From: Onchidella celtica
Taxonomy: Eukaryota; Mollusca; Gastropoda; Systellommatophora; Onchidiidae
Assembly: GCA_963931925.1 (NCBI GenBank)
Contig: OZ007571.1
Coordinates: 13,402,506-13,466,505, forward strand
Direction of reading: 5' to 3'
Length of the DNA: 64,000 nucleotides
The position numbers and the translations under genes are program-made. Of this stretch, positions 10,408 to 60,335 are shown in pieces. The notes below the pieces were generated by a model that worked only from the letters and a program-made list of their open reading frames with translations, did not search any database and had not been told where the DNA came from. Position 1 is the first letter of the stretch, and every line of letters starts with the position of its first letter.

Positions 10408-10569
10408 TCACAGAAAGCTGTGCCCAACTCTGCCAGAGTCCAACTCCGAACCTTCAAATGCCACTTTATCAGTGGCAGTCTTGTCTGTCTGTGTGTCACT
10501 AACATTCCTGTAAAACTTTCCCATGACAATATGCAATTTCAAGATCTCGTACAATAGCTTGTATTGATC
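10408..10569 (-). CDS. RPTP last coding exon: D2 C-terminus and tail
   Basis: It begins after a GCAG acceptor with DQYKLLYEILKLH, the equivalent of the conserved Q-x-QY-x-F helix that closes PTP domains. A tail of about 40 residues follows, and a TGA stop at 10408 to 10410. Phase 0 joins cleanly to the exon at 10862. Confidence 0.85.
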   Translation of the reverse strand, partial: DQYKLLYEILKLHIVMGKFYRNVSDTQTDKTATDKVAFEGSELDSGRVGHSFL

Positions 10570-10861
10570 CTGCAAAACAAAGAATAGCAGATTTGTAATT
10601 ATATATTATTATGATCGTCAATATAATATTGTTCATGTTAATAAACCTTCTTTGATTCAACTTTTCCACTGCCCATATGAACTCGAATTACTAAAGACAT
10701 AAAACAATAGAAAAGAATGAAATTTGTTCAAATATCAAAGTTGTAATATTGCTATAGGTCCCTTGGAATGGCTCTCAATATATGTGTCCATAATTCACCG
10801 AGATTACTAAACCAGGCCAAATGTGTACACCGGATTAGTCAACAATTCAATTTAAACTCAC

Positions 10862-10997
10862 CACAGTAGGAATAACTTGTGGCCTGATGGCTTTGAGAGC
10901 CCCCACCACCAGCGGTACTGACACGTACTGATCATGGTCCATTCTGTCCAGCAGTAGCAAAATCACACACATTAGGCCACTGAAATCAGCACCATTC
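10862..10997 (-). CDS. RPTP exon: D2 signature loop (inactive)
   Basis: With the last two bases of the upstream exon it reads MCRNGADFSGLMC. The active PTP signature is HC-x5-R. Here the His is Met, the Cys is present, and the residue at the catalytic Arg position is Phe. Downstream RPQVIPTV precedes the QY helix. The length is 136 nt, with AG acceptor and GTGAGT donor. This is strong evidence for a pseudophosphatase D2. Confidence 0.9.
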
Positions 10998-11502
10998 CTG
11001 AAAAAGCAGTTTCATTACAGATACCGGTGTGCTTACATTAATCTCTCACCTATGAAATCCACCCATGAATTGTCACTAAAGTTTGCAGAGACCTCTACTG
11101 TGAAAATAAAGCATCCTTAATAAGTGGTAATAAATGGCTAGTCTAAACTATTGGGATAAAATAATACCAACGAAACAACGTATAATTATGCAAATGCATA
11201 TTTCTATTTACTATTTCTACTTCTTCGAACCTCTGACTACCAACATCTTCTTGATCATCACTTGAACTATCACTAACTAGATGCAATAAAATACGACCAA
11301 CCCAGACAACAGACACATCGAAATATTTAGTATCTTTATATTTCTTCTTTTTTTTTCTTCAGATGAACAACATTATGTTAGCATTTATTATGATAAATTT
11401 GATGTAGTTTTTTCTTTTCATTCTTTTTACTTTGTGTGTTCCTTTGTAATTTGATAAAACATTTTAGCAGATGTGAAAACCAAATAAGACTGTTGAACCA
11501 AC

Positions 11503-11636
11503 CTGCACATGAGCAGTGTTCGTCCTTGACCAACAGGCCTCCGTAACCTGATTTCCATGGCTAAAGCTAGAAGTTCAGCTGGATCAAGGTCACTTATTTT
11601 GCATCTCAAATGTGTTACATGACACTCTTTATTAAA
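11503..11636 (-). CDS. RPTP exon: D2, region of the lost WPD loop
   Basis: It encodes CHVTHLRCKISDLDPAELL and ends in LLMC plus AG at the splice. The segment aligns with the stretch that carries W-P-D in active domains, but no WPD is present (CKISDLDP instead). The acceptor is CCCACAG and the donor GTTGGT. Confidence 0.85.
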
Positions 11637-13733
11637 CTGTGGGATGAAGAAAGAGGAAATTGGTCATATTCTTATCAGTTTCTTAATAGAAATTGCTATA
11701 TTATGTGAGTTAAATGTAAGCCAAATCCCAACTGTGGTTACAGGAAAATAAATGAAAGAAGGCAAAGAACTGCAGCAGTTCAATTGGGCAATTCTATCCC
11801 GTGTGTATATGTGTGTTTTTGCGTCTTTACTCTTCATCTTATTAAATATGCCAAATTAAAGGAACATGATAACCAAAAAAGTGAAAAGAAAATGCTTCAG
11901 TTAAAGATCACAATAGAAATTGTAACTATTATCTTGACCGCAGACAATTAGACTGCATTATGATAGAAAAGATTGGCATGAGATTAAAGACAAATTTGTC
12001 TTCCGAAAAACACCTCTCGACGTGCAGGTCTTTGGGGCGCTTTTATGTTTTACACTTTGTGTTATGGATCGCAATCTAAATGTTACAAACCCACTTTGAG
12101 ATGTTATGAAGGGGGTGTGTTTGTCATTAACCGGGATGCATGGGGTTATGTGTTCGACTGCATTTCTTTTTTGCAATTAAAAGTAGATTCAATCCTTACG
12201 CACAAACATATTAGTTACCAAGTAACAAATTGGGTAACTTTTGGCCGACTTGCAGGGTTTATTAACACTACTCAAAGTTAACAATAAAAGGATGTGAATG
12301 TGAAACAATATCATAAACCACAATGTCCATAATAATTCATATTAAATCTGGACTATTAGTCTGGACTATTCTAGATCCAATATAAGCCTAACTTTAAGTC
12401 TAACCTAAATCTAACTCAGTTCCTTTCACCCTTATAAATCCTCTTCTACTTATTCTGGAACTGGCCCTTAACTACGTTAGATGTCCTCAGGACATTATAT
12501 AACATTGCTGGCCAAAGGCTGAACTGTAATGGTTTATATTTCAGTAACTCCACAGATCATACAAAAACTGTAACTATCAGAGTATTTCAGACAATACTCG
12601 AAATTCTACAATTTACCAACTTGCCTAGCTCACTACAGAGACATAGGCATAAGATTATCTAGACCTTAAATCACTGTCGCAGTCTTGTTATGACAAATCC
12701 TACCATGTAGGATATCAAATTCAAACGACACTCATACCATTAAAATTAAAATCCACATGACATGGATCGTCTTGAGACGTGATGAACTGGTATTATCCAG
12801 ATTCACCACAGGCAGTTAAGTTAAAAAAATACAGATCTAGCTCTAGCCAGATCTAGTTAGATCTCAAAGAGATTTATCGTAAACTTCATTCTTTCAAAAT
12901 CACTGTACCACACTGTTAAATGTAAATGCTATAAGTAAATTCCATTCGTTCAAAAGATAGATATCCGCAGTGATGTCCTGCTCTAGATCTGTTCCTGGGA
13001 TTCAGACGTTATGGTGGCATAACTTTGACATTTACCATTGGTTCTCAACCGAAAGGTTGAGAACAATCCATTCCAAGCTTTCAGCACATTGTGCAAAGAA
13101 CACGAGCACTCTGTTAGCTCCTGCGTTATGCACAAGATTGCATGGGCAGATCTAGCAGTCTAGTCCACTGCTTTTCATTCTAGGAGAAAAGATTAAAGCC
13201 TGAGCTTCCATCACGGCCGGATTGCTTCAGCATTCGTTTGGAACTGAAGAATTAGTTCTCTCGCGGCCGGCAGACTCCTGATAACAGTACGCCTGCCCTG
13301 ATTGGTCGTAAATTTAACCGCTAAATGACGTAGAATATAATCCTACCCCCAAGTCGAAACCGGGGCGTTGATTTTCATTAATGCCCTATTATCTTTTTAT
13401 CTAAATATCCACCATCTCCCCTAGTATATATTCTTGTTGACTTTTTCTAGCCTATTCATAAAAATATCAGCGATATCCTATTTACTCTGTTTTTGTCTCC
13501 GCTATCCTGTCAGTCTACTGTCCCCCCCATGGATTAACCTGACGTCACAAAAAAATCCAATCATCGTCTGCCTCCTTGACCTTAGATACTAGGCCACGGC
13601 TGACGCGGCACGCATGTCACCATTATCTATTGCGTGCCATATTAACCCTAAAATTGAGTCATGACACTATGAACTGTCTTATATCAATTTTCGAAATGAA
13701 AACAAAATCATCACGTTATAGTGTCACACATAC
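11637..13733. other. RPTP intron
   Basis: AT-rich. It holds CTAGATCTAG-type motifs (12832 to 12866) and a perfect 10-bp hairpin with a GAAA loop at 13041 to 13064. No coding block was recognised. Confidence 0.6.
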
Positions 13734-13895
13734 ACTGGCATGGCATGACATCCTTGAGGCTGTTTCAGCATCTGTAGTGATGATAATTTTCTTTGTCCTG
13801 AAAAGGGTTTCATCAGAGACAGGTCCAGCTTGGATGCAAAATGGTGGAAGTTTAGTTGCCTTCCCATCATCTTCTGGCAGATACTCTCCTGAAGT
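13734..13895 (-). CDS. RPTP exon: D2 central strands
   Basis: It encodes TSGEYLPEDDGK then a sheet-like stretch ending FRTKKIIITT, corresponding to the YWP...V...R-x-L segment of PTP domains. 162 nt, phase 0 at both ends, acceptor TTCAG, donor GTATGT. Confidence 0.8.
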
Positions 13896-15562
13896 CTGAA
13901 GGCCCTATCAAAGAGTTAAGTGAAAGCAGGAATGGGATGGCAAATACAGAAGCAGCTAACTAAAATGAGCCCTTTAGGGAAACAAAACAATATCATTTTA
14001 ATAATTCCATATATCATTGTCATACACATTATTCGAATCCATTATTATTGTAATCTTCTCTTTACCCTTGAGATACCCTTAGAAAACCTGACTACCGGTA
14101 TTTTATTAAAGCGCCCGTCAGAAAAGTTGGGACCCGTGTTCTCCCGATCATTTAACTTGTAGTGAAAATGTCTCAGATTTTCCATGGCTCTCTATACCTT
14201 AATGAAAGTGGAAATGAATTATATGGTTCCATCCATCATGAACACCTGATCATTCATAAATATCCAGGGAAACGACAATCGGGGGATGTTTGGTTGTATG
14301 CCGTTCCACTGATGGTATCCTTCTCCCATCCCTATTAAATGTCTCAAAATGGCTTGCTTTTTAAATAATAATTGTCATAATTATATCATTTCTTTCGCTA
14401 CCTTCCCTGTTCAATGTGCCCAAATACTCTACCACTTAAGAATAATAATGAGATGCAACCCATTAAATCTCATCTTCATCCGCCCATGTTAGATTTGTAA
14501 GTACAGTAAATGGATTTCAAATCCCTCTAAACTATTGTTTCACAGCTGCAAAATCCTAATCTGGGGTAATTGACTGTCTGCCTTTATACTGGGCGCAATC
14601 AGTTTCTGAATGAATCTGTGAAACAAATCTAGATCAATCCTGTCTATTATAATTTTATATCCTCAGGGGCATGATGTCACCCCCGCCCCCCTCCCCCGAA
14701 CCTCCCCTGATAGCATGTTGGTTTTTTTTTTTGTTGTTGTTGTTGTTTTGTTTTTGTTTTTGTTTGTTTTTTTGGGGGGTGGGTCTAATTATTTGGCATT
14801 TTGGGTAATGGTATAATAATAATATACACCGTATTAATTTCTATTCGTGCATAGGACTATAAATTATTTCCGATAACTGCCAAATACAGTAGATCTATTT
14901 CTTTGGTTTGAAGAGGTACATCAATTATCACTGACTCAGTGGTTTCTAACAGCAGTCCAAGAGCCCATACCAGGCAGATTGCATTCATTCTATTTCCGCC
15001 CGTCTGGACAATCAAAATATCATCACTTTACTGTAAAGACCTCGATTTAAAAAAAAACAAAAACTAAACTGAAAAGAAGATTTCCATGGCATAGCTCGGC
15101 GAAACTGCTGAAATAGTTGTTTTTTCTGTAGAAGAGAGCAAGCAAGTTTATTTTTGTTGATTTCTGTTTAACGTAATCAGATGCACATGCAAAATTTGAG
15201 CTATTTTCGTCCTTTGTATGCGACATCATCGAGCAACATGCATCCCAACCTTTGTGGGGTGCAATATAATAAAACTGCTCACAGTAATATCATTTACGGT
15301 CACGCTTTATATTATATAAGGTAAGATTGGCAATGTTAGTAATTACCAAAACAAAGCCACATTAAAAAAGGAATTAAAGATTTTAATGATCATAGATATC
15401 TTCTGGACTGTCATTTTCCTGTATTACAAGGGTTTCGCATTTCATTCTTTAAAATTTTTATCATGGAAAACGTAATGCTCATTGAAAAAATCCACATTCT
15501 AATAATTAAAAAACGGCAGTTTTACTCTGCATAACACTGTAAAATCAAAGAGCAAACGGTAC
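13896..15562. other. RPTP intron
   Basis: No recognisable gene. Low-complexity C-rich and T/G-rich tracts lie near 14681 to 14777. Confidence 0.6.
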
Positions 15563-15700
15563 CAAATCTTTCTTTGCTAGGTTCACATCAAATGCCACTA
15601 TGAGTGAGACTTGACACTGTGTGACCATATGCCAGAAATCAGTGACAGTCGTTGGCAAAGGTAAACACGTCAGAATCTGTTGGTTGTGATTGGTGAAGCT
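15563..15700 (-). CDS. RPTP exon: D2, DFW motif
   Basis: It encodes QQILTCLPLPTTVTDFWHM, the counterpart of the Q-x-x-LTQGP-x-x-x-T-x-x-DFW segment of PTP domains, with the usual QGP altered to CLP. 138 nt, phase 0, acceptor TTGCAG, donor GTACCG. Confidence 0.85.
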
Positions 15701-16128
15701 CTGCAAAAACCAAATGTAGATGTTGCCTGTGATTTAACCAAGACATTGGAATATATCTTGTAATATAATAGTCTTTTATTTCAAAAATTAAATTGTAAAG
15801 TTGTAAATGGGTGAACATCACCACATTTGGGGAAAAATCTGCTGACGAGGACTCTGTGAATAAAATAAATTAGCTGGGATCAGGCTGTTGGGAATACATT
15901 AATTTTCTATTGTCTTAATTTAATTGTGAAGTAGTAAGTAGAAAAACAAAAGTACTTTTCTCAGAGATAGCAAGATCACTGAAAACCTATTTTGAATCGG
16001 CCGCATTTATTTGTATAATAACGTCCACAAAATACTTGATGCACGGAATACGAGATTATAAGATTTTAATGTATATTTTTTTTTCTCAAAGTTATATTGG
16101 ACACGAAGTCCCATTTGTTATGTCTTAC

Positions 16129-16202
16129 CGGAGCAAACACAGCATTGATATAATCTCCCAATTGATCACTGTCTCGGATCAGCCTTACCCTGTAGAGATC
16201 CT
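16129..16202 (-). CDS. RPTP exon: D2, DYINA motif
   Basis: It encodes DLYRVRLIRDSDQLGDYINA, the first strands of a PTP domain (YINASFI region). 74 nt. It begins in phase to complete a Lys codon with the exon at 21309 and ends in phase 0 before GTAAGA. Confidence 0.9.
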
Positions 16203-16620
16203 CTGTGAAACAAGACGATACTTTCATGCAAATGTGTAAAAACGTTACTCATTAATTGTTTGCTAGTAACGTGGAAAATAGCCACGTTTGTGCATTTTCT
16301 GTGCAAACCCCTTCAGTGAAGTTTGCAAAACCAGTAATGAAGTAAACCAAACAACTCAGAATGTTTTCTTTCTGTAAGACGTTTCGACTTAAAAGGAGTC
16401 CCAACAATGATGATATTAACGGAAGAAATGAAGTGGCATTAGTTCCTTTTCATCAAACAAGAAAATACACAGTTCTGTCATATGCATAAGGGCTTACCTA
16501 TCTATGGCCTGTGGAGCAAAAAGAAGAAATAATAACACTAGCACAGATTAATATCCATGTATTTGATTGTAATGAAGACAATCCTCAGATCTCCTAGCCA
16601 CAAGTAAGCACACCCACACA

Positions 16621-17208
16621 TAATAATAGTTCGTCCATCAGGTATGATGATGACCTTAACAACACCAGAGGAATAAAGAACAGAAATTGTTGAGAATTTT
16701 AACACATGGACAATAAAGAGAACTAAAGGACACAGAGGACAGAATGGAAAGACTGTTCTTTCATGACTTATGGCTTCTCATGTGACTGATAAGTCCTATT
16801 TTTGCCCTGCAGACCCTTCCGCATAAATGACAAGAGTGCTCCGTTGGTTCAGTACCACTGGGCCTTTTCTTGCGCCGTTCTCTTTTTTTGATAGCCTGCT
16901 GGACTCTGTCAGCTTCCCATGCTTTGCTGCCTCTGGTAAGGGCCGCCCTCCAATTTGCACGATCAAGGGAGAGCTTTTCCCACTCACTCACATCAATGGC
17001 AAAGGCCTTCAGTGATTGCTTGAGAGTGTCTTTGTAACGTCTCTTTGGGGCCCCAACATTCCTCGTTCCATTGGAGAGCTCAGAGAAGAAGATTTGCTTA
17101 GGGAGTCTGGAGTCGGGCATTCTGACAACATGTCCTGCCCAACGTAGCTGAATTTTTTTCAGGTGGCAGAAGATGCTCAATTCCTTGGCACGATTGAGGA
17201 CCTCAGTG
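16621..17208 (-). mobile_element. LINE copy 2, 3' segment
   Basis: The minus strand encodes the last roughly 150 residues of the LINE polyprotein, from EVLNRAKELSIFCHLKK to the terminal C2H2 finger. It ends in the same AATAAT tail as the 9.2 kb copy. It is continuous with the reverse-transcriptase segment at 18400 except for an LTR inserted at 17209, and bases 17204 to 17208 are one copy of that LTR's target duplication. Confidence 0.9.
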
Positions 17209-18394
17209 TGTCACGAGTGGAGTGAGCGATAGTTAATAATTACGGGGGGAAAGGAGGAGAGTAAAATTAACGCACGTAGACAAGTAAGGAAAAGCGTGCC
17301 TGTTATGAGTGGTGGGGGGTCTGAATGAGGCGAAAGCGCTGTATTACTATCACTGCAAGTTAGAACGTCCTAAAGAGCGGACGCAAGAGAAAGCCCAGTG
17401 GGCGAACATAAGGGGAGCAGTCAGAAGACTAGTGAGAGAGTCTTTCCAGTGATGACTGGTAGGTGAAACGATGATTGATAATTATGATTGATGTATTATA
17501 TTCGTCTATTACCATGATGTAAATAAGTATATGTGAGGAATGTGGAAGTCCTTGATATTGGATATAGCAATGTGCGCCATGAGCGATAGATGAAAGTGAG
17601 TTCACGGATTTGTAGCACGAGTGAGTATTGTGTACTCCGATGGAGGTGTGTTACCGTAAGATGTTTGGTGAGTGAAAGGTGAACTATTGTGTGTACGCTT
17701 CATGGGTTGTAAGGAGAGGGGGAGTGAATAGAAATGGTAGGGTATTATACCAATGTAATGTTATTCTTGTAGGTGTCGGGGACGGGCCAAAGAGCCACCT
17801 CGGTGAGCACAGGGGATAGGCCAGCATAGGGCCGGAGGCCACACATAGGCCAAGAGTGAGGCTGTCGGTGCAGGACAGTAGAGGCACATAAAGTCGTGGC
17901 AGTCAGGCCACGGACAGGGACGTAGATATGAGCGTGAATGTGATAATGTACTATTGCCATGTTGATGGGCTCTTGAAATGATAATGTGCTATTGCCATGT
18001 TGATGGGCTATTGAAATGATAATGTGCTATTGCCCTGCTGAGGTGCTAGTGGAATGCTAAGGTGTTACGGCAATGGGAAGGTGATATTGAGAGACTGCGG
18101 GGCCAGTGAATTATTAATGTGCTATTAAGACCCTGAGGGGAGAGGCTGAGGCCGAAGTGCCTTTAGGAAGTAACTACCGGGTTGTGGATCCGAGGAAGAG
18201 TGCATGTGAGAATAAGGCCGTTGTACGGCAGTTAATTTCAATAATATAATGTATGTAATTGCGCTATTATCTGTATAATTATGTTTAATAAATGTGTGAG
18301 TCTGATGGGTTGTTCTGTTAAGTGTTAAACTTGTTCGTTCGTGATTGTTGTCCTGTCATAACTTATTACATCTCCCAGTCTGGGATTTGTGACA
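17209..18394. mobile_element. Solo LTR inserted in the LINE
   Basis: This 1,186-bp block begins TGTCA and ends TGACA (inverted LTR termini) and is flanked by the 5-bp direct repeat CAGTG at 17204 to 17208 and 18395 to 18399. It splits the LINE coding sequence exactly. It has no coding capacity, and a 38-bp tandem repeat of about 2.7 copies lies at 17941 to 18043. An AATAAA signal near 18289 on the plus strand suggests plus orientation. The retrotransposon family is unknown. Confidence 0.88.
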
Positions 18395-19187
18395 CAGTGT
18401 CTGGAATTTTATCCTGCCATTTGATCCTTAGGATCTTTCTAAGGCAGGCCAGATGAAAGTGATTTAGCTTTCTGGCATGCGATTGGTACACTGTCCAGGT
18501 TTCAGCCCCATAGAGTAGGGTGGGAAGGATCACAGCATTGTACACTTTCAGCTTGGTGTCTGTGCGAATGCCGGCGACATCCCATACTCTCTTTCGAAGC
18601 CTGCCAAATGCAGAGCTGCCTTTGCTGATTCTTGAGAGAGTTTCAGTATCAACACGAGCCGCAGAAGACAGTGTACTGCCAAGATAGGTGAAGTTCTCCG
18701 ACACCTTCAGAAGACTGTCATGGACTTTGATATTTGGGGTCATAGGATACTTGTCGTCTGGAGTAGGCTGATGGAGCACTTCCGTCTTCTTTGTGCTTAT
18801 TGTGAGGCCAAAGTTGTCACAGGCACTAGAGAACTTATCAACACAGTTTTGCATGCTATCCTCATCGTGTGCCAGAAGTGCACAATCATCAGCAAATAGT
18901 AAGTCACAGACTTGAGTATTTTTGGTTTTGCTTTTTGCCTGAAGTCTCCTGAGGTTGAATAGACTGCCATCAGTTCGGTACTTGATGCTTACCCTTTGAG
19001 GAGGAGAGCTAAAGGCTTCTTGTAGCATTGCAGAGAACATGATGCTGAACAGAGTTGGGGCTAAGACACAACCCTGTTTTACCCCATTTGTGACAGCAAA
19101 GGGCTCTGAAACACTGCCGTTGCTTTTGACTGCAGCTTGCATGCCATCATGAAACTGGCGCACTATTGTGATGAATTCGGGTGGACA
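18395..19187 (-). mobile_element. LINE copy 2, reverse transcriptase C-terminal half
   Basis: It encodes CPPEFITIVRQFHDGMQ, then VTNGVKQGCVLAP, the catalytic LLFADDCALL (FADD box), and the thumb with FTYLGSTLS and ILPTLLYGAETW. It is intact to the point where the solo LTR enters. The first codon here follows directly on the last codon of the inverted segment to its right. Confidence 0.92.
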
Positions 19188-20600
19188 ATGGGTTGCGCTT
19201 ACTTACTTTGTGCGCTGAATTTGGCCTGTTCATTACCAACACAAATTGTAGTCTCCCCGTGAGAAACAGAACGTCATGGATGCATCCCCGCTCAAAGCAT
19301 TGGCATCTCATAGACTATGTCATTGTGAGGAAGACTGACAGAAAGGATGTCCTTGTAACCAAGGCGATGTGTGGTGCCGAGTGTGGAACTGACCACAGAG
19401 TCATTGTTTGCAAGCTCAGACTAACATTGAGGCGCAATAGACGCCCTCAATGGAAAGCGCCACCTAAACGCCTAAATGTTTCAAAACTCTGCTCAGCTGA
19501 GAAACAGAGCGAGCTCTCATCAGAACTCTCCTCAAAATTGGATTACGTGACTTTTGACCCTGAGAACATTGAACAGAGCTGGACTGACCTAAATACGACT
19601 GTACACTCTTGCGCCAGCAGCACAGTTGGTTTTCCTGTCCGCAAGCACCAGGACTGGTTCAATGATAATGATAATGAAATCAAAGTGGTCATCAAAGAAA
19701 AAAATAGTCTCATCCAAGCTCACTGCAGTGACCCCTCTTCCACAGCAAAAGCTGATGCACTGCGTGCATGTAAGGGTGTACTCCAGAAGAAGCTGAGGAA
19801 AATGAAAAATGACTGGCTTGAAGAGCGAGTAAGAGAAACTCAGAAATATGCCGACACAAACAACACTAGAAAGTTCTTTGAGAGCCTCCGAGCTGTGTTT
19901 GGACCATCCCGCTCTGGCACTACGCCACTTCTTGCGTCAGATGGTTCAACACGCATTGTTGAATTGAATGCCATAATTCAGCGTTGGGCAGAACATTTCG
20001 GAGGTGTGCTAAATGGGCCATCAAATATAAATACTGAGTCCATTGACCGCCTCCCTCAGAATCCTATTAATGCAGCTCTTGCCAAGCCATTCACAGCAAA
20101 TGAGACCCGAACTGCCACAAATCAGATGTCCTTTAACAAATCACCAGGCCTGGATTCAATTCCTGCTGAGGTGTATGCCTTCGGTGGAGAAAAGCTTATT
20201 GAAAGGTTGACCGAGTTGTTCAATCATATGTTGAAAGCAGGGAAGCTGCCACAGGACTTCAAAGATGCTTCAATCATCCATCTGTACAAAAACAAAGGGG
20301 ACAGCCAAGTCTGTGACAACCATCGGGGAATCTCTCTACTTTCAATTGCTGGCAAAATATTGGCAAGAATGCTTCTGAATCGCCTTCTTGATCACCTCTC
20401 GTCAAATGACTTGCTTCCCGAGAGCCAATGTGGCTTTCGTAAAGAGAGGGGAACGGCGGATATGATTTTTGCTGCCAGACAGATTCACGAAAAATGCATG
20501 GAACAAAATAAAGCGCTGTATATCACATTTGTTGACCTCACAAAAGCATTTGACACAGTGTGTCGTGAAGGCCTCTGGAAAATCTTGGCGAAACATACAT
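19184..20600 (+). mobile_element. LINE copy 2, inverted 5' segment (endonuclease end and RT N-terminal half)
   Basis: The plus-strand frame begins in the endonuclease domain (DNGLRLLTLCAEFGLF, HLIDYVIV, GTDHRVIV with the conserved DH). It runs through the RT fingers (SPGLDSIPAEVYAFGG, NHRGISLLSIAGKILARML, QCGFRKERGTADMIF) to VDLTKAFDTV with the first catalytic Asp, and stops in GLWKILAK. It lies head to head with the 3' part, and the two share a GACA microhomology at 19184 to 19187. This is the layout made by twin priming. The LINE clade (RTE-like or CR1/Jockey superclade) was not determined. Confidence 0.92.
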
Positions 20601-20604
20601 AAAC

Positions 20605-21308
20605 ATACACAAAAAGGTACCCTAGCTTTTCTCGGCGCGACTAAAATCCGTTGCTCATAAGAACTAAACAAAAAGTGACTTTTTCTTTTTTTACATTGAA
20701 GCATATAATAGATTATGAGACAAGGGACAAGTAAAATAACTTATCTATCTCAAGTTTGGTCCTGGGGTCAATGTAACCTCACAGATTCATTCAGAAATTA
20801 AATGCACCATTGAGAATTGAACATGTACCCACGATTTGATTAAATTATCAGATGTGAAACAATCCATTAAAGTTCTGCCTTATACTCCATAAGTTCAATA
20901 TTGTAAAAGATTCTAAAAATGGAATGGTTTGGAGATCGAATACTACATTTTCAAAGCGTAAAAATTGGAACTAAAATGACATTGATAGCTTCAGAGGCGG
21001 GCTAAAATTAGCATTTAAACTCCAGTTCAATTCTTAGCCACGATTATTAGTTCTGGAACACTTCATAAACATTTATGGTGGCTTGGCTATCACCAATAGT
21101 GGGACATATAATTTTTATCTCCTCTCCTCTCTGCCCCTTTCCATTCCATGTGAGAAGAAGCATGGTGGACACGGGCTTTCCCCCTCGCCTCAGATGCTGC
21201 TCATAACAATATGTTTTGAAATTCCTCACAAGGTTTTATCACTTTCACAAGTACAGACGTTCAACAGAAAGTGCTTTATACCTCTAGCAGTTCAAGACTA
21301 CAACTTAC
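20605..21308. other. RPTP intron remainder
   Basis: No coding block recognised between the LINE end and the next exon. Confidence 0.6.
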
Positions 21309-21410
21309 TTGGCAAAACATTGTTGGCATGATTTTTCCTTTTATTAGCAATTTTCCTGCCTTCCTCTTCTACACCCAGAGTATGCTTAATGCGGTCGTCT
21401 TCACTGTTTC
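21309..21410 (-). CDS. RPTP exon: D2 N-terminus
   Basis: It encodes NSEDDRIKHTLGVEEEG then KIANKRKNHANNVLP, the counterpart of the NKxKNRxxxxLP entry helix of PTP domains. 102 nt, with 2 nt at the start and 1 nt at the end shared with neighbouring codons. It joins in frame to the exon at 16129. Confidence 0.88.
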
Positions 21411-21495
21411 CTGACACACGGCAAATTATCTGTTTAATAATAGATGTCCCATGTGAGAACAAAAAACAATGTGCCTGTAAAAGTCAGAATCTCAC

Positions 21496-22462: not shown

Positions 22463-22609
22463 TTGGAATTCCCTCTCCATATTGGTTTTTCCTGTCTCTG
22501 CTGTCTTTGACAGAGTTTTCATCTGTTCCTGTAAGCTCGTGGGTGTCACTGTAGTGCCCATACATGGCATGGCTGCCTGAGCAGCTTTGTGTAGAAATTC
22601 ATACTGTTC
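22463..22609 (-). CDS. RPTP exon: D1 C-terminal helix and linker
   Basis: It opens with EQYEFLHKAAQAAM, the Q-loop helix that ends D1, then a linker of about 35 residues finishing in NMEREFQ, typical of the start of a following PTP domain. 147 nt, phase 0 at both ends, donor GTATGA. Confidence 0.88.
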
Positions 22610-45535: not shown

Positions 45536-45638
45536 AATGGGGTACTCCAAGAAAAATATAATATTTAGATATTTGTCAATAACCATTTGTAAGTTTATCT
45601 GCAGTATGAGTAATTGGTCTTTTGTTACATTGACTTAC

Positions 45639-47836: not shown

Positions 47837-48695
47837 CTGAACAATAATCATTATGGCAATGTATTTTATGCAACCACTTTAGTTTACCACAAAGAGAACT
47901 ACTAAAAGATCTTTGCTAGGGTAATAATGATTTCGTTGGAACGGCTGAGGCTCACATGGTGATTTTGGTGAAGCTTACTTGCAATCTAAAATGCCAAACA
48001 GTTAGTTGGGAACAGCCTCACATGGGACATTTGACATGTGGTGCTTTTTCATAAGTCGATGCCAAACAATGAAATGGGAGTAGCTCGGTATGGGAAATTT
48101 TCCACGATTATGATCAAATTCATTTTCCACTCTCATTTCACCGCTAATACATAAGTAAGCTTTTGCCTCTTTCATCTTCTTGTTCTATACCCTTTCCGCT
48201 TATTCCTTATAAATGCACTTTCTTTAAGTCAGCCAGTTACTGATTAGGACAGCAGTAGACCCATCATAAATAGTGACCTTTGAGCGGAACTAGAACTTTC
48301 ATTTAATGGAGATAACATCTGGACTGACAATAGAATGATGCTTCTTTAATGACACGGGAAAGGGGCAAGACTTCAAAACCAAGATTTTATACAAATCACA
48401 AATAGCTAGAAACCTAACAAACATTATGAATAACTTTTTAAAAACTTTTTTTTTTCTAAATCTCAAATTAGCAGTTTACTACTGAAAAAGGAACAGAAGA
48501 AAAAAAAAAAACCAGTAACAACTCACAGGATCTAAAATATCGACGGTCTTAGTTAAACTTAATTTCCTTAACCAAAGTTGAACAGATTCACTAATGGGGT
48601 ACTCAAGGAAAAATATAATTTTTACATATTTGTCAATAACAATTTGTAAGTTTATCTGCAGCATGAATAATTGGTCTTTTGTTACACTGACTTAC

Positions 48696-48797
48696 CGCAT
48701 GTGTTACTTGCTTGGCTGTATGTGTGTGCCGGGTCCTGACAAGTACATACACAATTTGCATTCTGGTTGGCATTGCTGGGGCAACTACTCCGACATT
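48696..48797 (-). CDS. RPTP array exon, unit 8
   Basis: It encodes CRSSCPSNANQNANCVCTCQ then DPAHTYSQASNTC. Splice sites intact. Confidence 0.87.
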
Positions 48798-49805
48798 CTG
48801 AATAATAATCATTATCGTTATGTATTTTAGGCAACCACTTTAGTTTACCACAAAGAGAGCTACTAAAAGATCTTTGCTTGGGTAATAATGTTTTCATTGG
48901 AACGGCTGAGGCTTATATGGTAGCTTTTGTGCAGCTTACTTGCACCCTAAGATGCCAAACAGTTAGTTGGGAACAGCCTTACATGGAACATTTTACATGT
49001 GGCGTTTTTTCGTAAGTCAATGCCAAACAATGAAGCGGGAGTAGCTCGGTATGGGAAATTTTCCATGACTATAATCACATTTATTTCTCCACTCTCAATT
49101 TACCGCTAATACATAAGAAAGCTTTTGTCTCTTTCATCTCCTTATTCTATACCCTTTCCTCTTATTCTTCATAATTTAAAAGCACTTTCTCTAATTCAGC
49201 CAGTTGCTGATTAGGACCGAAACAGAACGATCATAAAGCCATATTCCAGTGGAACTAGAACTTTCATTTAATGGAAATGGCGCCTGGACTAACATCAAAA
49301 TGATGCTTCTTTAATGACACGGGAAAGTGACATGAACTCAAATTCAAGATTCTATATTGATCATGAATAGGTAGAAATCTAACAAACATGAATAAAATCT
49401 TTTTTTTTTCTAATCTCAAAGTAGCAAGACAACATTGAAAAAAGAACAGAAGAAAAACAATATCAAGTAAAGATTGACTGGACATACAATACTGACGTTG
49501 TTAGAACTCATTCACTATATGATTATGGTACTCGAAGAAAAATATAATAAGCTGGCGTACAAAAACAAATTAAGAAGAAGAAATATATTATGCATCCATT
49601 TATTCCCAATCAATTATGAAAAGTGTGCGTCGTTCATTGTGTACTACTAATACTACACAGGTTTGACTCACCGCCGTATATGTAGTTACATTTCAAAAAC
49701 TGACAACTCTACACACCACCCATGATGGAACCTTTAGATATTTGTCAATAACCTGTAAATTTATCTACAGTATGAGTAACTGATTTTTTGGTTACATTGA
49801 CTTCC

Positions 49806-49907
49806 CGCATCTATTAGTTCCTTGGTTGTATGTGTGTGCTGGGCTCTGACAAATACAGTCACAATTGGCAATCTGGTTGGCATTGCTGGGACAACTTCTC
49901 GGACAAT
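49806..49907 (-). pseudogene. RPTP array exon, unit 9, splice donor lost
   Basis: The coding part is intact (CPRSCPSNANQIANCDCICQ then SPAHTYNQGTNRC) but the donor reads GCG/GGAAGT instead of GCG/GTAAGT. With GG in place of GT the exon should be skipped or spliced aberrantly. It is the most 5' unit of the array in transcript order. Confidence 0.8.
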
Positions 49908-50461
49908 CTGAACAATAATCATTATGGCAATGTATTTTATGCAGCCACTTAAGTTTACCACGGAGAAAGATGTGGCACATTTTCAATCTGTGGGATCGAT
50001 CAACTTCGGCACTTTATTAGGATTATCGATTTTTTCAGTAAAAGCTTTTGCTTTTCTTAATCTCTTTCCCGAAAATGATTTTCTTCTGGCCATCCCTCTT
50101 TCAAATGAATCAACCAAAGCTAGCTGCAGGAAACCACACTATGGCGCATAGTTATTCACATAAAATTTCATCAGAAAGATTTCAATCCACAAATAATTTC
50201 AACGCTGGCTCTCTCAGCACCTTCATCCAACAAAACAATCTAACCATAAGCCATGATAAGTGACTGCAGGCTCAACATAGGTATACTTGCAGGCCACAGC
50301 TTGATTGGTTGGGACATCTTGAAGATTTAGAATTAAGCGGCTTAAGCAGCTTAAGTCGAAGTCATAAAGGCTGAAATCGGGTTCTGTTTCCGGAAGATTG
50401 CAAAAAATATGGCCTGGGTATTGTAACCTCAAATATTCGTCATTATCCTGTAACGTTATCT

Positions 50462-50820
50462 GCAGTATGAGACAATAGTCCTTTATTACATTGACTTCCT
50501 GCATGTGTTAATTGTTTAGTAGTATAAGTGTGTTGGGTTGACAAAGATAGAGATAACAGCACACATTAATAAGTTATTTCTCTAATTATTTCATCCTGAA
50601 AGAAATATCTTGCACATCTCAATTTCGATAATAGCCTAAATATCCCTGGAAAATGAACATATAACAATCCATGAAGCTATGTTATCCCATTACTAACTTG
50701 AGCCCATGGAACTTTCGGTAATACCCAGTAAATCTAAATACAATAAGACTATTCTTAAGTCTTTGGTTACATTGACTTTCTGCACTTGTTAGTGACAGGG
50801 TCGTATCTGAGTGCCGAATT
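50462..50820 (-). pseudogene. Two remnants of array exons
   Basis: The donor-side text of the array exon (TTACATTGACTTCCTGCATG and TTACATTGACTTTCTGCACT on the plus strand) recurs at about 50487 and 50768, without a readable cysteine module or GT donor. These are decayed units beyond the array. Confidence 0.6.
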
Positions 50821-51800: not shown

Positions 51801-51861
51801 ACCTAGCCCATACTTGATCAAGATACAACCCACCAGAACCCAGGTCTAGTAAAATCCAAAC

Positions 51862-54386
51862 ATGCATTCCAACAACCCGTTTGAGCACCCATCCATCGAT
51901 TGGGGAGCCCCTGATCTCTACAAAGAATTCACACGATTCAAAGATCATGTAGGATTCGTGTTCAGTGGACCCTTATCGGATTTGACTCCTAAACGACAGG
52001 CAGGTTGGTTGGGGACTTGGATTGGCTCTCAAGGTCGGGAAATCTGTCGCACACTTCAATGGGAGGATGGGGACAAAGATGACCCAGACAAAGTTCTAAG
52101 CAAGTTCGTGGAGTACGTCAGGCCCAGGAAGAACAAAAGGATTGCTGGGCACAATCTCAAACAGCGGCGCCAAACACAGACAGAGTCCTTCGACAAATTC
52201 CTCACGGAGCTAAGACTGATCATCATGGATTGCGATTACTCAGAACCTGATGACATACTGATCGACTGTATCATTGATGGAGTCTATGACCGAAAGGTAC
52301 AAGAACGGCTGCTGGATAGGGGCGAGGCCCTAACACTGCACAAAGCTATTGAAATCTGTCAACAATTCGAAACGTCGAAGAAACAAGTTCAAATCGTACG
52401 CGGCCAGGAGGAGGACCCTTCGGTCACTGAAATACATGAGATGAAACAGAAACCCTCAACAAACTCCAGAAAAGCCACGCAATCGAACTGCTACCGCTGT
52501 GGAGGAGACAACCAGCACCCTAAAACAAGAGGGAAATGTCCTGCGCAAGGCACATCCTGCTCATTGTGTAAAAAGCCAAATCACTGGGCCAAGGTCTGCC
52601 GTTCACAAAAGAAGATTCACAGCATCACACCTAGTGAACAGGACTCAGAAGAAGAAGTCATGGCCATCCATTCCTATGCCACAGTTGACAACCGACATAC
52701 AAAAGACAAATGGACCCAGGGGCTGTTAGCATCAGGAACACCCGTGTCTTTGAAAATCGACACCGGAGCAAAGTGTAACACTATTACGGTGGCCGACTAC
52801 CAAGCCATTTCAGATCAATGTCCCATTCGACATTCATCAAAAATCCTTCGGACCTACTCAAACCACCACATTCACCCAGTGGGTGCAGTGGACATTGAAT
52901 TAGCACACAAGGCCACAACTGTGACTGAGGAATTTCAAGTTGTTAACCTGCAACAAGAAAATGTGATTTCCGGCAGAGTTGCTGAAACACTCGGTCTCCT
53001 CACTCGCATATCATCACTCTCCGACTCCAACAGGCTTCAACAGGAGTTTCCAGATGTTACAGAGGCTACTGGGACCCTCCCTGGAAAGTATTCAATCAAA
53101 CTGAAGGATGGGGCAGTAGGAGTCGTTCATCCACTCAGGCGGCAACCTGCTGCATTAAAACAGAAAATCATAGACAAACTAAATGAGATGGTATCAAATG
53201 GTCACATTGCCAAGGTGGAGGAACCAACTGAATGGGTGAACAGCATGATGGTGGCTGTTAAAAATGACAAAATCAGGATCTGCCTTGACCCCAAAGATTT
53301 GAACAAGGCCATTAAAAGGGAACACTACCCTATGAGGACCATAGAGGAGGTTGTACAAGAAATTCCAGGCTGTAAACTATTCTCTACACTCGATGCAAAG
53401 AGCGGATTCCTTCAGATAAAACTCGATGAAGCGTCATCCCTCCTTACGACATTCAACACGCCAGTGGGGCGCTACAGATGGCTGAGGTTACCATTTGGAA
53501 TCAGTTGCGCACCAGAGGTCTTCCAAAGAATCATGGACAATATGCTGGAAGGCATCAGTGGAGCCTATGCTGTCATTGATGACATTCTCATTGCAGCCAG
53601 GACACTTGAAGAACATGACAGGATTCTACGTCAAGTCATGGAGAGGGCATCCAGCTATAATCTGAAGCTCAACTTTGAAAAGACAAGCCTCAGGCAAACA
53701 CAAGTCTCTTATGTTGGACATGTACTTACAGAACATGGACTGAAACCAGACCCGGCCAAGGTACAAGCAGTCCTCGACATGCAGAAGCCTTCAAGCAAAG
53801 ATGATGTACGCCGTTTCTTGGGGTTCATCACATACCTAGGGAAATTCTTGCCTCACCTCAGCGAGGAATCTCTTCCCTTACGTGAGGTTCTCAGGGCTGA
53901 TGTGGATTTTGTTTGGGACTCGAACCAGGATGCTGCATTCACTCGCCTAAAACTCTTATGCACCCAATGCCCAGTTCTCAAATACTTTGACACGTCAGTA
54001 CCTGTGGAAATCCAGTGTGATGCTTCAAGCAAGGGTCTTGGTGCTGTCCTGTTGCAGGAAGGACATCCCATAGCGTACGCGTCCAGAGCCCTGACAGGCG
54101 CTGAAACAAGGTACGCACAGATCGAAAAAGAAATGCTCTCTATAGTCTTCGCTTGCAAGAAATTCCACTGCTTCATATTTGGTAAGGAAACCACAGTCTA
54201 CAATGATCACAAGCCACTTGAGATGATCTTCAAAAAACCACTGATCACTGCCCCAATGAGACTGCAGAGGATGCTGCTTTCTCTTCAATGGTACGATCTG
54301 AAAATGTGTTACAGAAAGGGTGCAGATATGCAGCTGGCAGACACCCTTTCACGTGCCTACATCTCAGACAAAACCACAGAGCTTGG
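51862..54386 (+). pseudogene. Gypsy Gag-Pol, first part (Gag, protease, RT, RNase H)
   Basis: The Gag region is about 200 residues. A double CCHC-like knuckle follows (CYRCGG-x-NQHP... and CSLCKKPNHWAKVC). The protease has DTGA. RT carries the catalytic aspartate pair in AVIDDILI (Ile where Tyr/Val is commoner), and RNase H has QCDASSKGLGAVL and DTLSRAY. True homology ends at 54386, where another LTR is inserted. The frame continues to 54507 inside the insert. Established role of such polyproteins: particle formation, processing and reverse transcription. Confidence 0.93.
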
Positions 54387-55631
54387 TGTCATGATTCGGA
54401 TGTTGTTTAAAACTCACGCAGAGAGTGAGTTGTTGTTGTTTTACCAGGGCCATGAGAAATTGGCTGGTGGCCTTGAACGGCCCTCGCGAATTATAGTTGG
54501 TGAGTAAATAAATGTGAAGTTAAACTGTTAGATGCACGCTTGTCGGTTTTAATGTTCGTGATTAATAAGTAATGGAGTAGGGGTGAAACAAGGTGGGGAT
54601 AGTTGACATTGTTAAGTATGACTAGACAAGTTTTTGCACGTTAACTGGCTGGTAGAATAGTGCAGACGTATTACTACAATTGAAATGGTGGGAGGTTTCG
54701 ACCTATGAGATAGCTGAACTAATTGGGCCAGCGGACTAGCACTGCTGGGTAGCCAGATAGTATAAAACATCGTGTAACGTTCAGATTTGGGGAATACAGA
54801 CGAGCAGAAGCGTCGTGTCGTGAAGTATCTCCGGTTGGCCAGTACCTGAACTGTGTGGTTTGAAGACTAGAAGTCCTTGCTAACGGACTGACTGAGCTCT
54901 AGAAAGAAAGGTCTGAGTGGGCTGACCTTTGAAAGCCCACGCTGCGCTATTTTGATGTTCGCGCCTACCAGTAGGCGTGACCAATGGTAATATATCTTAT
55001 TAGTTCAAGCATAATAGAAGATCAGAGATAGAGAGAGAACCACAGCCTCATAGGAAGTCTAAGGAAACCCCAGCTGGCACTCGACGACGACTGGCCTGTG
55101 TTACAGAATTATTTCCATAGTATGATTGAAGTAATATGGCACATTGTTGATGAATTGAATAATGATTGTGCATATATATAAATAGTTTTTTTGCAACTGC
55201 GTAATTACCTACAAGCCGAAGTGTGCTTCTGTAGGCTTGGAACGTACTGGGCTCTCCTAACATTCAAGCCCATATGATTTAGGGAGAGTTTGCCTGGCGA
55301 CTGGCCAGTGGCGACTCAACTGTCACTTTAAATTGATATCTAGTTTCGTATAATATACCTATTTGCTATTGATTGCAGTACATCCAATAAGGAACCATAA
55401 TTACATGAAATATCATAGATTAAGTTAGTAATTAGAATTTATTGCTTTGAATATACCTCTATTGTCTTTTGTTTTGTTTATTAATATTTATGTAAGACAT
55501 GGCCTGACCGGCCTGACATATATATATACTCTAGTTGTTTAATACTTTTCTTGTGTGGTTGTGTCCGAGTGTGAGTTAGCTGCCTCTCGTGCAGTCGAAT
55601 GCTCCCCAAGACCCTAACTCTGCTCGTGACA
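54387..55631. mobile_element. Solo LTR nested in the gypsy element
   Basis: 1,245 bp with ends TGTCA and TGACA, flanked by the 5-bp target duplication CTTGG at 54382 to 54386 and 55632 to 55636. A TATAAAA box lies at about 54759. No coding sequence. Its ends resemble those of the solo LTR at 17209 (both have a CTCGTGACA end) but the interiors look unrelated. Confidence 0.93.
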
Positions 55632-57014
55632 CTTGGACCTATTGAAACCGACATCAAGCTTGTGATCTCTATCACAGATGAAAAGTACAGTGAGTTACAA
55701 GCAGCATCGGACGATGAACTAGCTCATCTGAGAGAAATCATCTTGCGAGGGTGGCCCGATCAGAAATCAGAGGTTCCACAAGACCTCCGTCCATATTGGG
55801 ACTCAAGGGCGGAACTCTCAGTGTCGGACGGGATTGTAGTGAAAGGCACCAGACTGGTCATTCCACCAAGCATGAGACAACACATGTTGTGCCTAATCCA
55901 TAGATCTCATCTAGGGATCACAAAATGCAAGCAAAGGGCAAGAGAAGTGATGTACTGGCCCAGCATGAATGCCGATATCGAGGAGACAGTCAAGAACTGC
56001 TCAAACTGTGCAGATGTCCAGAGGCAACAGATGAAAGAACCGTTGAAACCGTCACCGCTTCCTGCCTTTCCTTTCCAAAGAGTATCCACAGATATATTTG
56101 AATTCCAAGGCTCCAACTACCTAATCATGGTTGACTCATACTCAAGATTCATACTGACAGACAGACTAAACAACCTGCAGAGTGCCACTGTGATCAATGC
56201 AATGCGCCAGGTCTTTTGTGTACATGGAATCCCTGAGATTCTGACCAGCGACTGTGGTAGGCAATATACCTCTCACGAATTCCAGGACTTCTGCTCTAGC
56301 TGGAGCATCCAACATGTCACAAGTTCGCCACACTATCAACAGGCCAACGGTCTAGCAGAGAGAGCTGTACAGACGGTCAAAAGACTATGGAAAAAGGGCG
56401 CTGATCAGCATCTATCCTTACTGAATTACAACAGCACACCTATGGAAGGCTACAATGCATCCCCTGCACAACTGCTCATGGGCCGCCGGCTAAGGAATAA
56501 TCTCCCTATACCATAGGCACACCTTAAACCTCAATCTGTAGACGCCAGCCATGTTGCCAAAAGCTTTCTAAAGCAAAAAGCCACTCAGGCTTATCACCAT
56601 GACAAAGTTGCTACCAAACCCCTGCAACCATTGAAGCCAGACCAAGAAGTACGTGTAGCGCCACTCCCTGGGCAAAGAAATTGGTTTCCTGCAGTAGTCA
56701 GCCACCAACATAACCACCCAAGATCTTACATCGTGGACACAGGCAAGACAAAGTACCGACGCAATAGACGACATATAAGACCATCTTCAAACAAAGCCAA
56801 TGATCCGCTCAGAAGCACAACAGTAGAACTAGAAGAACTTCCTGAAGCAATACAGGAACGGCTACCAGAGTTGCAGCAACCCGAGTCGCCAGCGAAGGAA
56901 CAGGACCATCCTGGTACTAGAGACCTTTCCTCAACAGATCCACCAGTGAGACAGTCAAACTATACCACCCGTTCCCGACGTACAGTACGCCTCCCCGAAC
57001 GGCTGGATCTGTAA
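55632..57014 (+). pseudogene. Gypsy Pol, second part (integrase) with a premature stop
   Basis: The integrase zinc site has HRSHLG and NCSNCADV. The catalytic core has D in STDIFEF, D in LTSDCGRQYTS and E in NGLAERAVQTVK (D,D35E). A TAG at 56513 to 56515 interrupts the frame. The C-terminal part continues in the same frame to 57014. The frames of this part and of the first part agree once the inserted LTR plus one target copy is discounted, so one gene was split by the insertion. Confidence 0.92.
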
Positions 57015-57382: not shown

Positions 57383-57472
57383 AGTTTACTTTCCCACTGG
57401 CCCAGGTCCTCAATTAAAAAAGATGTTTAAAACAAGTGCAAACAGAATAATGTCTATATTATTTTCAGACTT

Positions 57473-57615
57473 TTTTCACATCTTGGGCCTTGATAACCCG
57501 CTTTAGGACCACGTGGGCATGATCCACTTATAAAGTTACATAATATGTCATCTCGTTCACAGTTCCCACTGCAATTACATCATACATCCTAGTCCATAGC
57601 TGCCGTCAGGACAAC
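57473..57615 (-). pseudogene. Frameshifted EGF-like RPTP exon
   Basis: After a TTTACAG acceptor it reads CPDGSYGLGC, then meets TAA, while a shifted frame continues NCSGNCERDDI and SGSCPRGPKAGYQGPRC. The MEGF-type pattern is clear but one frameshift and the absence of a GT donor at the end (TGTG then A-run) mark it as dead or mis-sequenced. It lies 90 bp from the gypsy 3' LTR. Confidence 0.75.
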
Positions 57616-58195
57616 CTGTAAACAAGATAACCAGCAATAATCGACAGAGGAAGTTTAGAAAATTGTGGTTATAAATTTGTAATCATGTGTGTTTCTGTGC
57701 TGATGTAGTATGCTACTGAATAAAACTGTCTCTCTCCCAGGCCTGTAGGGCATCATTCAAATATTATCTTGGAACCGGAAATTCGTTGTATGAGTGCAAT
57801 GTGTCACTGCTTTCCAGGATACGATTTAGTCCTGGCAGATAGGCTACCGATCTTACATTCTCACTATGAATCAACAATCCACAGGTTTCTGTGCATTGAC
57901 ACACTTCAAACCTGACATCAGAAACCAAAGAAAATTACATTTTCTTGTCTTTTGTCATAATTTGTAACAACCTTTTCCTGGAAATTTCCTTACAATATTG
58001 TAAGTAGATTGTTACATTTTTTAAAAATACACAAAATCTCTAAGATTGCAGCAAGGCTGGGAATGGGGTTAAAATGTGGCAAGAAAATAAAATGTTATAT
58101 GTTGCAAAGCTCCAAACTTTCTTCAAAACCTAAACACTTCATTGAACACACGGCTCATACATTTCTTGTTACTTGTGCATGTCACAGCTTGTACC

Positions 58196-58290
58196 AATAT
58201 AACCCTCTTTACAACTACCTGGACACTCTCCAGACTTAAAGTCACATTTGACATCTCTTATACAGTTCCCGCCGCAAGTGCATACACACC
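58196..58290 (-). CDS. Possible EGF-like RPTP exon
   Basis: It encodes CVCTCGGNCIRDVKCDFKSG, then ECPGSCKEGYIGTSC, a partial EGF unit without the usual N-terminal C-x-G-x-YG. The acceptor TGATCAG is weak, and the donor could be the GTAGTT after CPG or lie further on. It may be functional or a remnant. Confidence 0.5.
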
Positions 58291-58342
58291 CTGATCAATA
58301 TTTGTTCAGTGGGTATTCTGTAAGTAAGATGGCCAAGTTACA

Positions 58343-59460
58343 TCAGCACATTGCACATTATCAGTGTTTTGAGAATGACATACAAATGTGCTTAAGGTAA
58401 TCAGACGTAAACTTGACCAAAAATTGCTGTCACAGGAAATGTGAATAAACATGTATACATATTTTTTTCTTCGGATATTAAATTTTATGTTATGGCAGAG
58501 CATCAAAATAGATACATTTTAGCATCATTTAAATAATACTCATCAGAAAAATAGAAAACAAAATGCATTTGAAAACGACTGACGTTCAGAATCTCAATGA
58601 AAATAAAACCTGAAGAAGGACAGCCGCACACAATAAAGGCACATTTGGCTGCACATGAAAGATTTCAGGCAGAGTACGTGATTTGCAAAACTAAAAACTG
58701 CAGGAAGTGGACCTGGTACTACCATCGCGATGCAAGCAATGAAAATATCTGATTTAGAACTGATGGAAGGTATGGGGAATTTCAGTATTACTAGATGAGA
58801 CATCCGGTATTACACGGGTTAAACCTGAACTCCCTCCACCCCCTCCCGCAACCCCGTAAAAAAGAAAACCTCACAACAACTGATTAAATGCTGTTTTGGG
58901 AGACAGCACCCGTCCGTCACCTTCATTCCATCCTGCACGTTCCAACTGCAGAACAATGCACATTATCAGAGTTTTGAGAATGACACACAGACGTGCTTAA
59001 AATAATCGGACGTAAACTTGACCAAAAATTGTTTGTGGCAGGAAACGTGAATAATCATGTCAACATATTATTACGTTATTGCAGAGCATCAAAATAGATA
59101 CATTTTGGCATCATTTAAATAATACTCATCAGAAAACTCGAAAACAAAATGCAGTTGAAAACTACTGACTTGTTCAGAATCTCAGTTTAATCGTTTTGTT
59201 TTCTTTTCTGTCTGTCATACCTAAAGTGAAAATAAAACCTGAAGAAGAACAGCTGCACACAATAAAGGCACATTTGGCTGCACATGAAAACTTTCGGTAT
59301 TACTAGATGAGTCATCTGGTATTGTCCGGGGTAAACCTAAGCTCCCCCACCCCCACCCCCACCCCCCAAAACAAAAAAAAACAAACAAACAACTGATTAA
59401 ATACTAGTTTTTGCGAGCCAACACCCGCCCACCATCTTCATCCCATCCTGCACGTCCCAA
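58343..59460. repeat. Tandem duplication, two units of about 0.5 to 0.6 kb
   Basis: 58343 to 58945 and 58952 to 59460 share long stretches (GAGCATCAAAATAGATACAT, AAGGCACATTTGGCTGCACA, CATCCTGCACGT) with indels. It lies in the first large RPTP intron. Confidence 0.88.
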
Positions 59461-60249
59461 CCCTTTCTCTTGTCCGTATCAACAATCCATTGTGTAACTG
59501 AAGAAAGAAAGTACATGTACACAATAACATATAAAATTATATACCATCACACACAGATGGAGTGCATATGAATGAGGTCAAATAAATAAATGACTCAGTT
59601 TCTTCTGTAGTGCTAATGTGACAAGGAAACTTAGTGATCTAGGTTGGGTACTATTATGTTCAAGAGTAAAGCTGAGTTACAACCACCATAGGAAACTGTT
59701 TTGGAGATGTGCACATGAGTTGAAAAGACGCCAGGTGAACTTACTGAATTTACTGGGGGAGGGGGGGGGGGGAGCTTGTGTTGTTATTTCTACGTGTATC
59801 CGGTTTTCCTGCTTTAATATGTATAAAATATTGCAATATGAAATGAGACGATGCCAAGTAATTGCTAAGATCGTAAACGTTTTGTAATGACTTATGAACA
59901 TTGACAGCTCGAGCACTATTTGTGTAATGCTCATGCACCTATCATCATCAATTAAAGAATGACAATTATGATTGTGTCTACAAACATGAATAATAAGAAT
60001 GTAAACCACGAGAAAACAGACACGTAATTTGATTTCAGTACGGCTGTGTGCTCTAAAAATACAAGTACAATGTGCGTTTTCGACCCGTCTGTTGTTTTAA
60101 AAAAAACCTTCTCTTCTAGCGATTTTTGTATTACATTTCGTCATATTTTAGTTTACATAACAAACCATACATATGCCAACAAATACCATGAAGTTAAAGA
60201 CAATCTCATATAAAGATGTGATTCACAACAATCAAGCTTTCAAACCTAC

Positions 60250-60335
60250 CCTGTCCCCGGCAATCCCAGACAAGGATCAACAATGAAAACACCACAAAAG
60301 TGTAGCTCCTTGGCATCATCCTCTTTGTGGCAACT
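60250..60335 (-). CDS. RPTP first coding exon with signal peptide
   Basis: Start codon at 60319. The frame gives MMPRSYTFVVFSLLILVWDC then RGQ, a standard signal peptide (basic residue, hydrophobic core, polar end). It finishes one base into a codon before GTAGGT, the phase 1 that all ectodomain exons use. The ATG is 17 bases inside an exon with a good acceptor (TTCATGCACAG), so an upstream 5' UTR exon must exist. Confidence 0.85.

Follow-up and report, generated by a model that had tools for sequence, protein, structure and literature searches.

The window, i.e., the whole stretch of 64,000 nucleotides of Onchidella celtica DNA that was analysed, is located on contig C5 and contained on its minus strand a gene of 21 exons (60319 - 10408), encoding 913 amino acids in a single frame. 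The exons were placed with the neighbouring paralogues as guides. The model starts with an ATG at 60319 and ends with a TGA (stop codon 10408 - 10410), and its internal junctions are canonical (AG/GT) with matching phases. The encoded parts consist of a signal peptide (MMPRSYTFVVFSLLILVWDCRGQ; 60250 - 60319, ending in phase 1, with 83% DNA identity to the signal exon of the downstream neighbour over 60 of its 70 bases), two intact EGF-like exons (a, 36169 - 36309; b, 33499 - 33657; both phase 1-1), the sole transmembrane (TM) exon (LPIVAIIVPIVIVIALIVAIIIGVLVW; 31576 - 31690), a tyrosine-bearing cytoplasmic tail (30480 - 30781), a juxtamembrane exon with a conserved YYNT motif (28724 - 28902), and two phosphatase domains, D1 (22463 - 28046) and D2 (10408 - 21429), in that order; the signal peptide and TM segment were judged by eye. 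D1 is encoded by eight exons (28046 - 27959, 27528 - 27452, 25573 - 25537, 25003 - 24906, 24729 - 24610, 24028 - 23883, 23107 - 22972, and 22609 - 22463) and carries KNRY, WTDKEVP, HCSNGVGRTG, and a conserved Q-loop. D2 is encoded by seven exons (21429 - 21309, 16202 - 16129, 15700 - 15563, 13895 - 13734, 11636 - 11503, 10997 - 10862, and 10569 - 10408) and is dead (CRNGADFSG). A scan for a mini-exon was performed because one gap in D1 demanded a small exon with a FIATQ-like motif; the exon retrieved (GINGEEKFIASQ) sits in the predicted interval, with a longer start as an option. Counterparts flanked by AG/GT were present in both neighbours, at one place downstream (GYNGEEMFIASQ) and at two places upstream, where one reads GFNGEEKFIASQ.

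In the spliced protein, the Pfam model Y_phosphatase (PF00102) was retrieved in two stretches (E = 1.2e-101), and the best PDB sequence matches of the D1-D2 block were RPTP alpha (6uzt, the best one) and RPTP epsilon. With a signal peptide, one TM segment, tandem PF00102 domains, and one frame, the sequence model is that of a receptor-type tyrosine phosphatase (RPTP). The original prediction of minus-strand parts with matching splice phases, among which a signal peptide, a single membrane span, and a dead D2, was borne out by this joined frame. Indeed, pervasive frame breaks, named beforehand as a sign against it, were absent from the 913 codons, and the 11.25-Mb paralogue contains its EGF-b, TM, tail, juxtamembrane, and early D1 exons in the same order, which argues for one gene. 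Judged by frame, phases, and the order shared with paralogues, the window gene is therefore real and reads as one intact gene with the predicted domain order.

The ectodomain corresponded less well to what had been expected. Two further EGF exons are broken and lie outside the model, namely a laminin-type one (58172 - 58294, minus strand) with an in-frame TGA and a Cys-to-Tyr change just 5' of it, and one with a frameshift (57457 - 57639, minus strand). Thus, the cysteine-rich/EGF repeats predicted originally comprise two intact EGF-like exons, two broken ones at 58.2 and 57.5 kb, and an array at 39.7 - 50.5 kb that is a different module. No EGF model of Pfam or NCBIfam passed its cut-off, for neither of the two intact exons, so that the domain search of the spliced protein returned the phosphatase domains and left the EGF models below their cut-offs; at the broken 58.2-kb exon, PF00053 likewise stayed below its cut-off (E = 0.0032; 18.0 bits, cut-off 21). 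By their cysteine pattern the EGF-like exons resemble EGF modules, and their best solved relative is the EGF region of Tie2 (E = 0.004). An EMI domain was not found by Pfam in the 913-amino-acid model, nor in the three minus frames of 50.6 - 60.3 kb, a scan that is insensitive to single exons, as it missed the EGF remnants there too. Beside the broken EGF exons, the first intron harbours open reading frames of an LTR-type retroelement (51853 - 56516, plus strand; RVT_1, RNase H, and integrase core). Further mobile-element traces were reverse transcriptase fragments (RVT_1) in both orientations in the D2a-D2b intron (18369 - 20602) and, outside the gene, an ORF of 380 amino acids (1668 - 2810, plus strand) that may stem from a DNA transposon and whose THAP domain is borderline (23.8 bits; cut-off 23.9).

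The array (39666 - 50545, minus strand) is made up of nine units, roughly 1 kb long, and every unit contains one phase 1-1 exon coding for a six-Cys module of some 35 amino acids. Judged by sequence, the array is distinct from the EGF-like exons, and related units occur on chromosomes 10 and 6. The module (CxxxCPSNANQNANCGCICQNPAHTYNQASNTC, 35 amino acids) forms very large arrays at C10:9.85 - 10.24 Mb and C6:39.1 Mb, and in a protein search, in which 150 of 465 candidates were scored, over 100 of the scored matches came from C10 and C6 together. In their main pieces, the units in the window resemble one reference unit at 73 - 91%, and they share 74 - 81% DNA identity with the C10 units over about 1 kb, introns included; hence, DNA units resembling those of C10 sit inside an intron of the receptor gene. 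As the module exons are in phase 1-1, they could be spliced into the receptor. A donor GT is present in eight of the nine units, the first copy (49.9 kb) having lost it. For seven window copies, however, pN/pS of the six-Cys exons, summed over pairs, was 0.83, and six copies displayed an identity of 0.88 in the exon, hardly lower in the upstream intron (0.86), and 0.66 in the downstream intron.

Tandem family and possible mosaic history

A search of 1.14 Gb of genome with PF00102 yielded at least 149 matches; this and the following counts are lower bounds, as 150 of 286 candidates were scored. At least 28 matches to the P-loop exon (profile positions about 177 - 221), including that of the window, occur in two clusters on C5, at least 10 at 3.28 - 4.21 Mb and at least 18 at 11.24 - 13.51 Mb. 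Therefore, the window gene forms part of a large tandem array, and by its sequence it belongs to a tandemly expanded molluscan family of RPTPs. A molluscan genome is also in line with 33 matches to PF14830, the molluscan haemocyanin family, against none in 14 control genomes. In the upstream paralogue, 20 of the 21 window exons were located with AG/GT kept, whilst no signal exon was detected in the part of the upstream DNA that was examined. The AA at the donor site of its EGF_a exon was considered as a sign of decay and dropped, since, following an insertion of 3 bases, a GT lies three positions further along. This closest relative has KNRC instead of KNRY in D1, and its last coding exon is frameshifted with an early stop. 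On the other side, C5:13315.9 - 13320.3 kb (3.4 - 7.8 kb of the downstream stretch) is occupied by fragments closely resembling the D1f-D1g intron and the last D2 exons of the window gene. One of the copied exons differs in length such that its frame is shifted; the whole is probably a partial duplicate.

The window gene is related to its two neighbours in different ways. Compared with the upstream gene, most of 21 - 32 kb aligns with its introns, mainly at 82 - 87% with some pieces as low as 70%; the EGF region aligns at 75 - 78%. Compared with the downstream gene, alignment extends into the introns around the signal exon and the two EGF exons, the latter exons being 90 - 91% identical (dS of EGF a+b 0.089, a rough value from a short alignment), whereas from TM to D1 only roughly exon-length pieces align (D1 dS 0.98, without one exon and with one 19-base piece mis-placed). 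Window-downstream figures for D2 were not used because of the second, fragmentary D2 copy downstream, two loci being probably mixed. This split in DNA likeness and dS indicates that ectodomain segments may have been exchanged or homogenised independently of the cytoplasmic half.

Selection, expressed as dN/dS (NG86), differed along the gene. Against the upstream paralogue, values were 0.45 for all exons, 0.29 for D1 (280 codons), 0.58 for D2, and 0.34 for the tail, and D1 gave 0.14 against the downstream paralogue (227 codons, with one exon missing and one short piece mis-placed). The EGF exons gave 0.70 against the upstream and 1.18 against the downstream gene; therefore, this test shows little or no constraint on the ectodomain. 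Together with the two broken EGF exons, the retroelement in the first intron, the lower number of intact EGF-like exons (two, compared with eight exon cores of this type in the same orientation in the downstream stretch), and the frameshifted last exon of the upstream neighbour, these ectodomain values would suit an incipient pseudogene, in which retroelement and module array destroyed most of the ectodomain while tail and phosphatase are drifting. The 21 intact exons, the uninterrupted 913 codons, and the low D1 and tail values against the upstream gene make this quite unlikely.

Catalytic loops of D1

The window D1 departs from the canonical set of an active D1 (KNRY, WPD, HCSAGVGRTG, and Q-loop) in two places, as Ala is replaced by Asn in the P-loop (HCSNGVGRTG) and WPD by WTD; the catalytic Cys and Arg, the Asp of the WPD loop, KNRY, and the Gln of the Q-loop are kept. 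The description of D1 as active-looking thus holds only in part. Two active-site exons were compared among 16 genes, namely the window gene, both its neighbours, and 13 of 25 other C5 loci. The residue following the CS of the P-loop is Asn in three genes and Ala in 13. Similarly, WTD occurs in the same three genes, WSD in one, and WPD in the remaining 12. These three are the window gene, its upstream neighbour, and the paralogue at 11.245 Mb (the 11.25-Mb gene), and they form one clade with a support of 1.000 in a tree of 246 bases from the 16 genes, the branching inside the clade being unsupported (0.213). In addition, the pTyr loop reads KNRC in the upstream gene and KNRH in the 11.25-Mb gene. 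Within the clade, pairwise omega was 0.13 - 0.30. The catalytic-loop changes are thus kept under purifying selection on D1, as in a pseudophosphatase; such selection is equally expected of an active enzyme.

Replacement of the P-loop Ala is known from other phosphatases. In HD-PTP, a Ser at this position inactivates the enzyme and its reversal restores activity, and IA-2 has an Asp there (PMC2661844). PTPRU, with a Thr, is described as inactive and as protecting substrates, although no single change accounts for its loss of activity, and the Ala-to-Thr change in PTPRK left activity in place (PMC7320164). Hence, the Asn of the window gene could be tolerated as well, and for these two reasons weak or absent D1 activity is put forward as likely only.

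The reading that we favour, at a probability of roughly 0.55, is that of a maintained gene of the RPTP family whose D1 would be inactive or strongly weakened and which, in the manner of PTPRU, would work against its normal paralogues. On its sequence, the receptor is probably catalytically impaired. With a short ectodomain of EGF-like type, one membrane span, a tail bearing tyrosines, and a D1-D2 block like that of RPTP alpha/epsilon, it would hold phosphotyrosine substrates or partners without efficient hydrolysis and may compete with or oppose catalytically normal paralogues, a decoy role proposed by analogy; it might serve as an immune or contact signalling receptor. Against this stand the retained Cys, Arg, WPD-loop Asp, KNRY, and Q-loop, the tolerance of PTPRK for a change at the P-loop position, and the frameshift in the last coding exon of the upstream clade member.

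An ordinary active RPTP is possible but doubtful. In this case, the loop changes would be tolerated, D1 would dephosphorylate tyrosine, and the tail tyrosine would dock an adaptor, which we take to be of the Grb2/Drk type. The retained Cys, Arg, Asp, and Gln, the Thr tolerated by PTPRK, the D1 omega within the clade, and the Asn at +2 of the tail tyrosine in five of six tails, one being QYAN, are consistent with it; however, among the 16 genes both loop changes occur in a single clade, and the pTyr-loop Tyr is missing in two of its three members. A more speculative, rather unlikely reading is a paired-receptor system of phosphatases, with dead and active receptors binding the same ligand and having opposite effects on tyrosine signalling. 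It would be in line with the near-alike, exchanged EGF segments (90 - 91%, dS 0.089) on differing insides (D1 dS about 1, introns unalignable).

Tail tyrosines

The tail of the window gene contains YEELAKPMGHYENL followed by YEEI, which fits the ITAM pattern YxxL/I-x6-12-YxxL/I with a spacing of YxxL-x6-YxxL. An NPxY motif is absent from this tail. When tail plus juxtamembrane exon were shuffled 100,000 times, the pattern arose with a probability of 0.015 for x6-12 and 0.0065 for x6-8. Six tails could be compared, as tail sequence was available for six of the eight juxtamembrane-exon matches, and the ITAM pattern was present in that of the window only. Indeed, the others read YEEP..YENL..CEEI (upstream neighbour), FEEA..YENV..IEEK (11.25-Mb paralogue), HEEV..HYANA (13.35 Mb), HGEV..QYANA (13.24 Mb), and HTED..HYAKA (21.06 Mb), so that the residue at the first ITAM tyrosine is Y, Y, F, H, H, and H. 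The ITAM-like motif pair predicted originally hence matches the pattern as such, in this copy alone, and it was rejected as a conserved signalling device, being missing from all five other tails. The second tyrosine (HY in the window) is conserved, and the YYNT of the following exon is present in all six paralogues. Under the favoured reading of an impaired receptor, the conserved HYxN and YYNT tyrosines would be docking sites, the YxN one presumably of the Grb2 type.

The original prediction had proposed a self-limiting switch, in which the ITAM recruits a kinase of the Syk/Shark type and the receptor's own active D1 shuts it off. The pattern with its low shuffle probabilities, the third motif (YEEI) close by, and the KNRY, Cys, Arg, and Asp retained in D1 agree with such a device. 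It has become very improbable, given an ITAM in one of six tails with a changing first tyrosine, altered D1 loops, and a model without EMI domain and NPxY.

Comparison with known systems

Draper, MEGF10, and CED-1 share with the window gene the ITAM pattern, in this one copy, and presumably a related cysteine spacing of the EGF-like exons. An EMI domain and NPxY are features of Draper/MEGF10; neither was found in the window model, which possesses phosphatase domains. Draper is erased by a separate protein, the phosphatase Corkscrew, and for Fc and T-cell receptors this part is played by CD45 (PMC4503800, PMC8092387), the erasers of MEGF10 and CED-1 being given as unreported (PMC8092387). As the Draper eraser and CD45 are separate proteins, an ITAM with its own phosphatase in cis would be unusual, and the window locus does not make the case for it. 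Among the literature titles and abstracts retrieved, none described an RPTP combining EGF modules with an ITAM, which is no proof of absence. RPTP alpha and epsilon (R4) are the best PDB sequence matches of the D1-D2 block; unlike these, the window gene has a D2 without catalytic Arg. RPTP alpha and epsilon are not known to have EGF modules.

HD-PTP (PTPN23) and IA-2 differ from the window gene in domain architecture. They resemble it in the replaced P-loop Ala (Ser and Asp, respectively, and Asn here), and the KNRH of HD-PTP is the same as in the 11.25-Mb paralogue (PMC2661844), but their inactivity was measured, whereas that of the window gene is predicted. RPTPs are also reported from mollusc haemocytes. 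In oyster agranulocytes, more than 40 RPTPs are expressed alongside Draper-like receptors, with EGF-like domain proteins among the PTP-activity transcripts (PMC13070813), and RPTP alpha-like proteins appear in haemocyte proteomes of Biomphalaria (PMC6281880). The locus suggests a way in which mollusc RPTP arrays may swap ectodomain parts. If D1 is dead, sister genes with intact active-site motifs make a decoy function directly testable across neighbours.

The human R2B receptor PTPRU has an ectodomain that is not EGF-like. It parallels the window gene in that both D1 and D2 are altered, the same P-loop position is affected (Thr; Asn here), and close active paralogues exist; it differs in having WPE and GSRQ where the window gene has WTD and KNRY (PMC7320164), and in that its inactivity is established, that of the window D1 being predicted from sequence. 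PTPRU has been called unique amongst RPTPs (PMC7320164); if the window D1 is dead, the gene would represent an RPTP lineage with two pseudophosphatase domains that originated independently of PTPRU.
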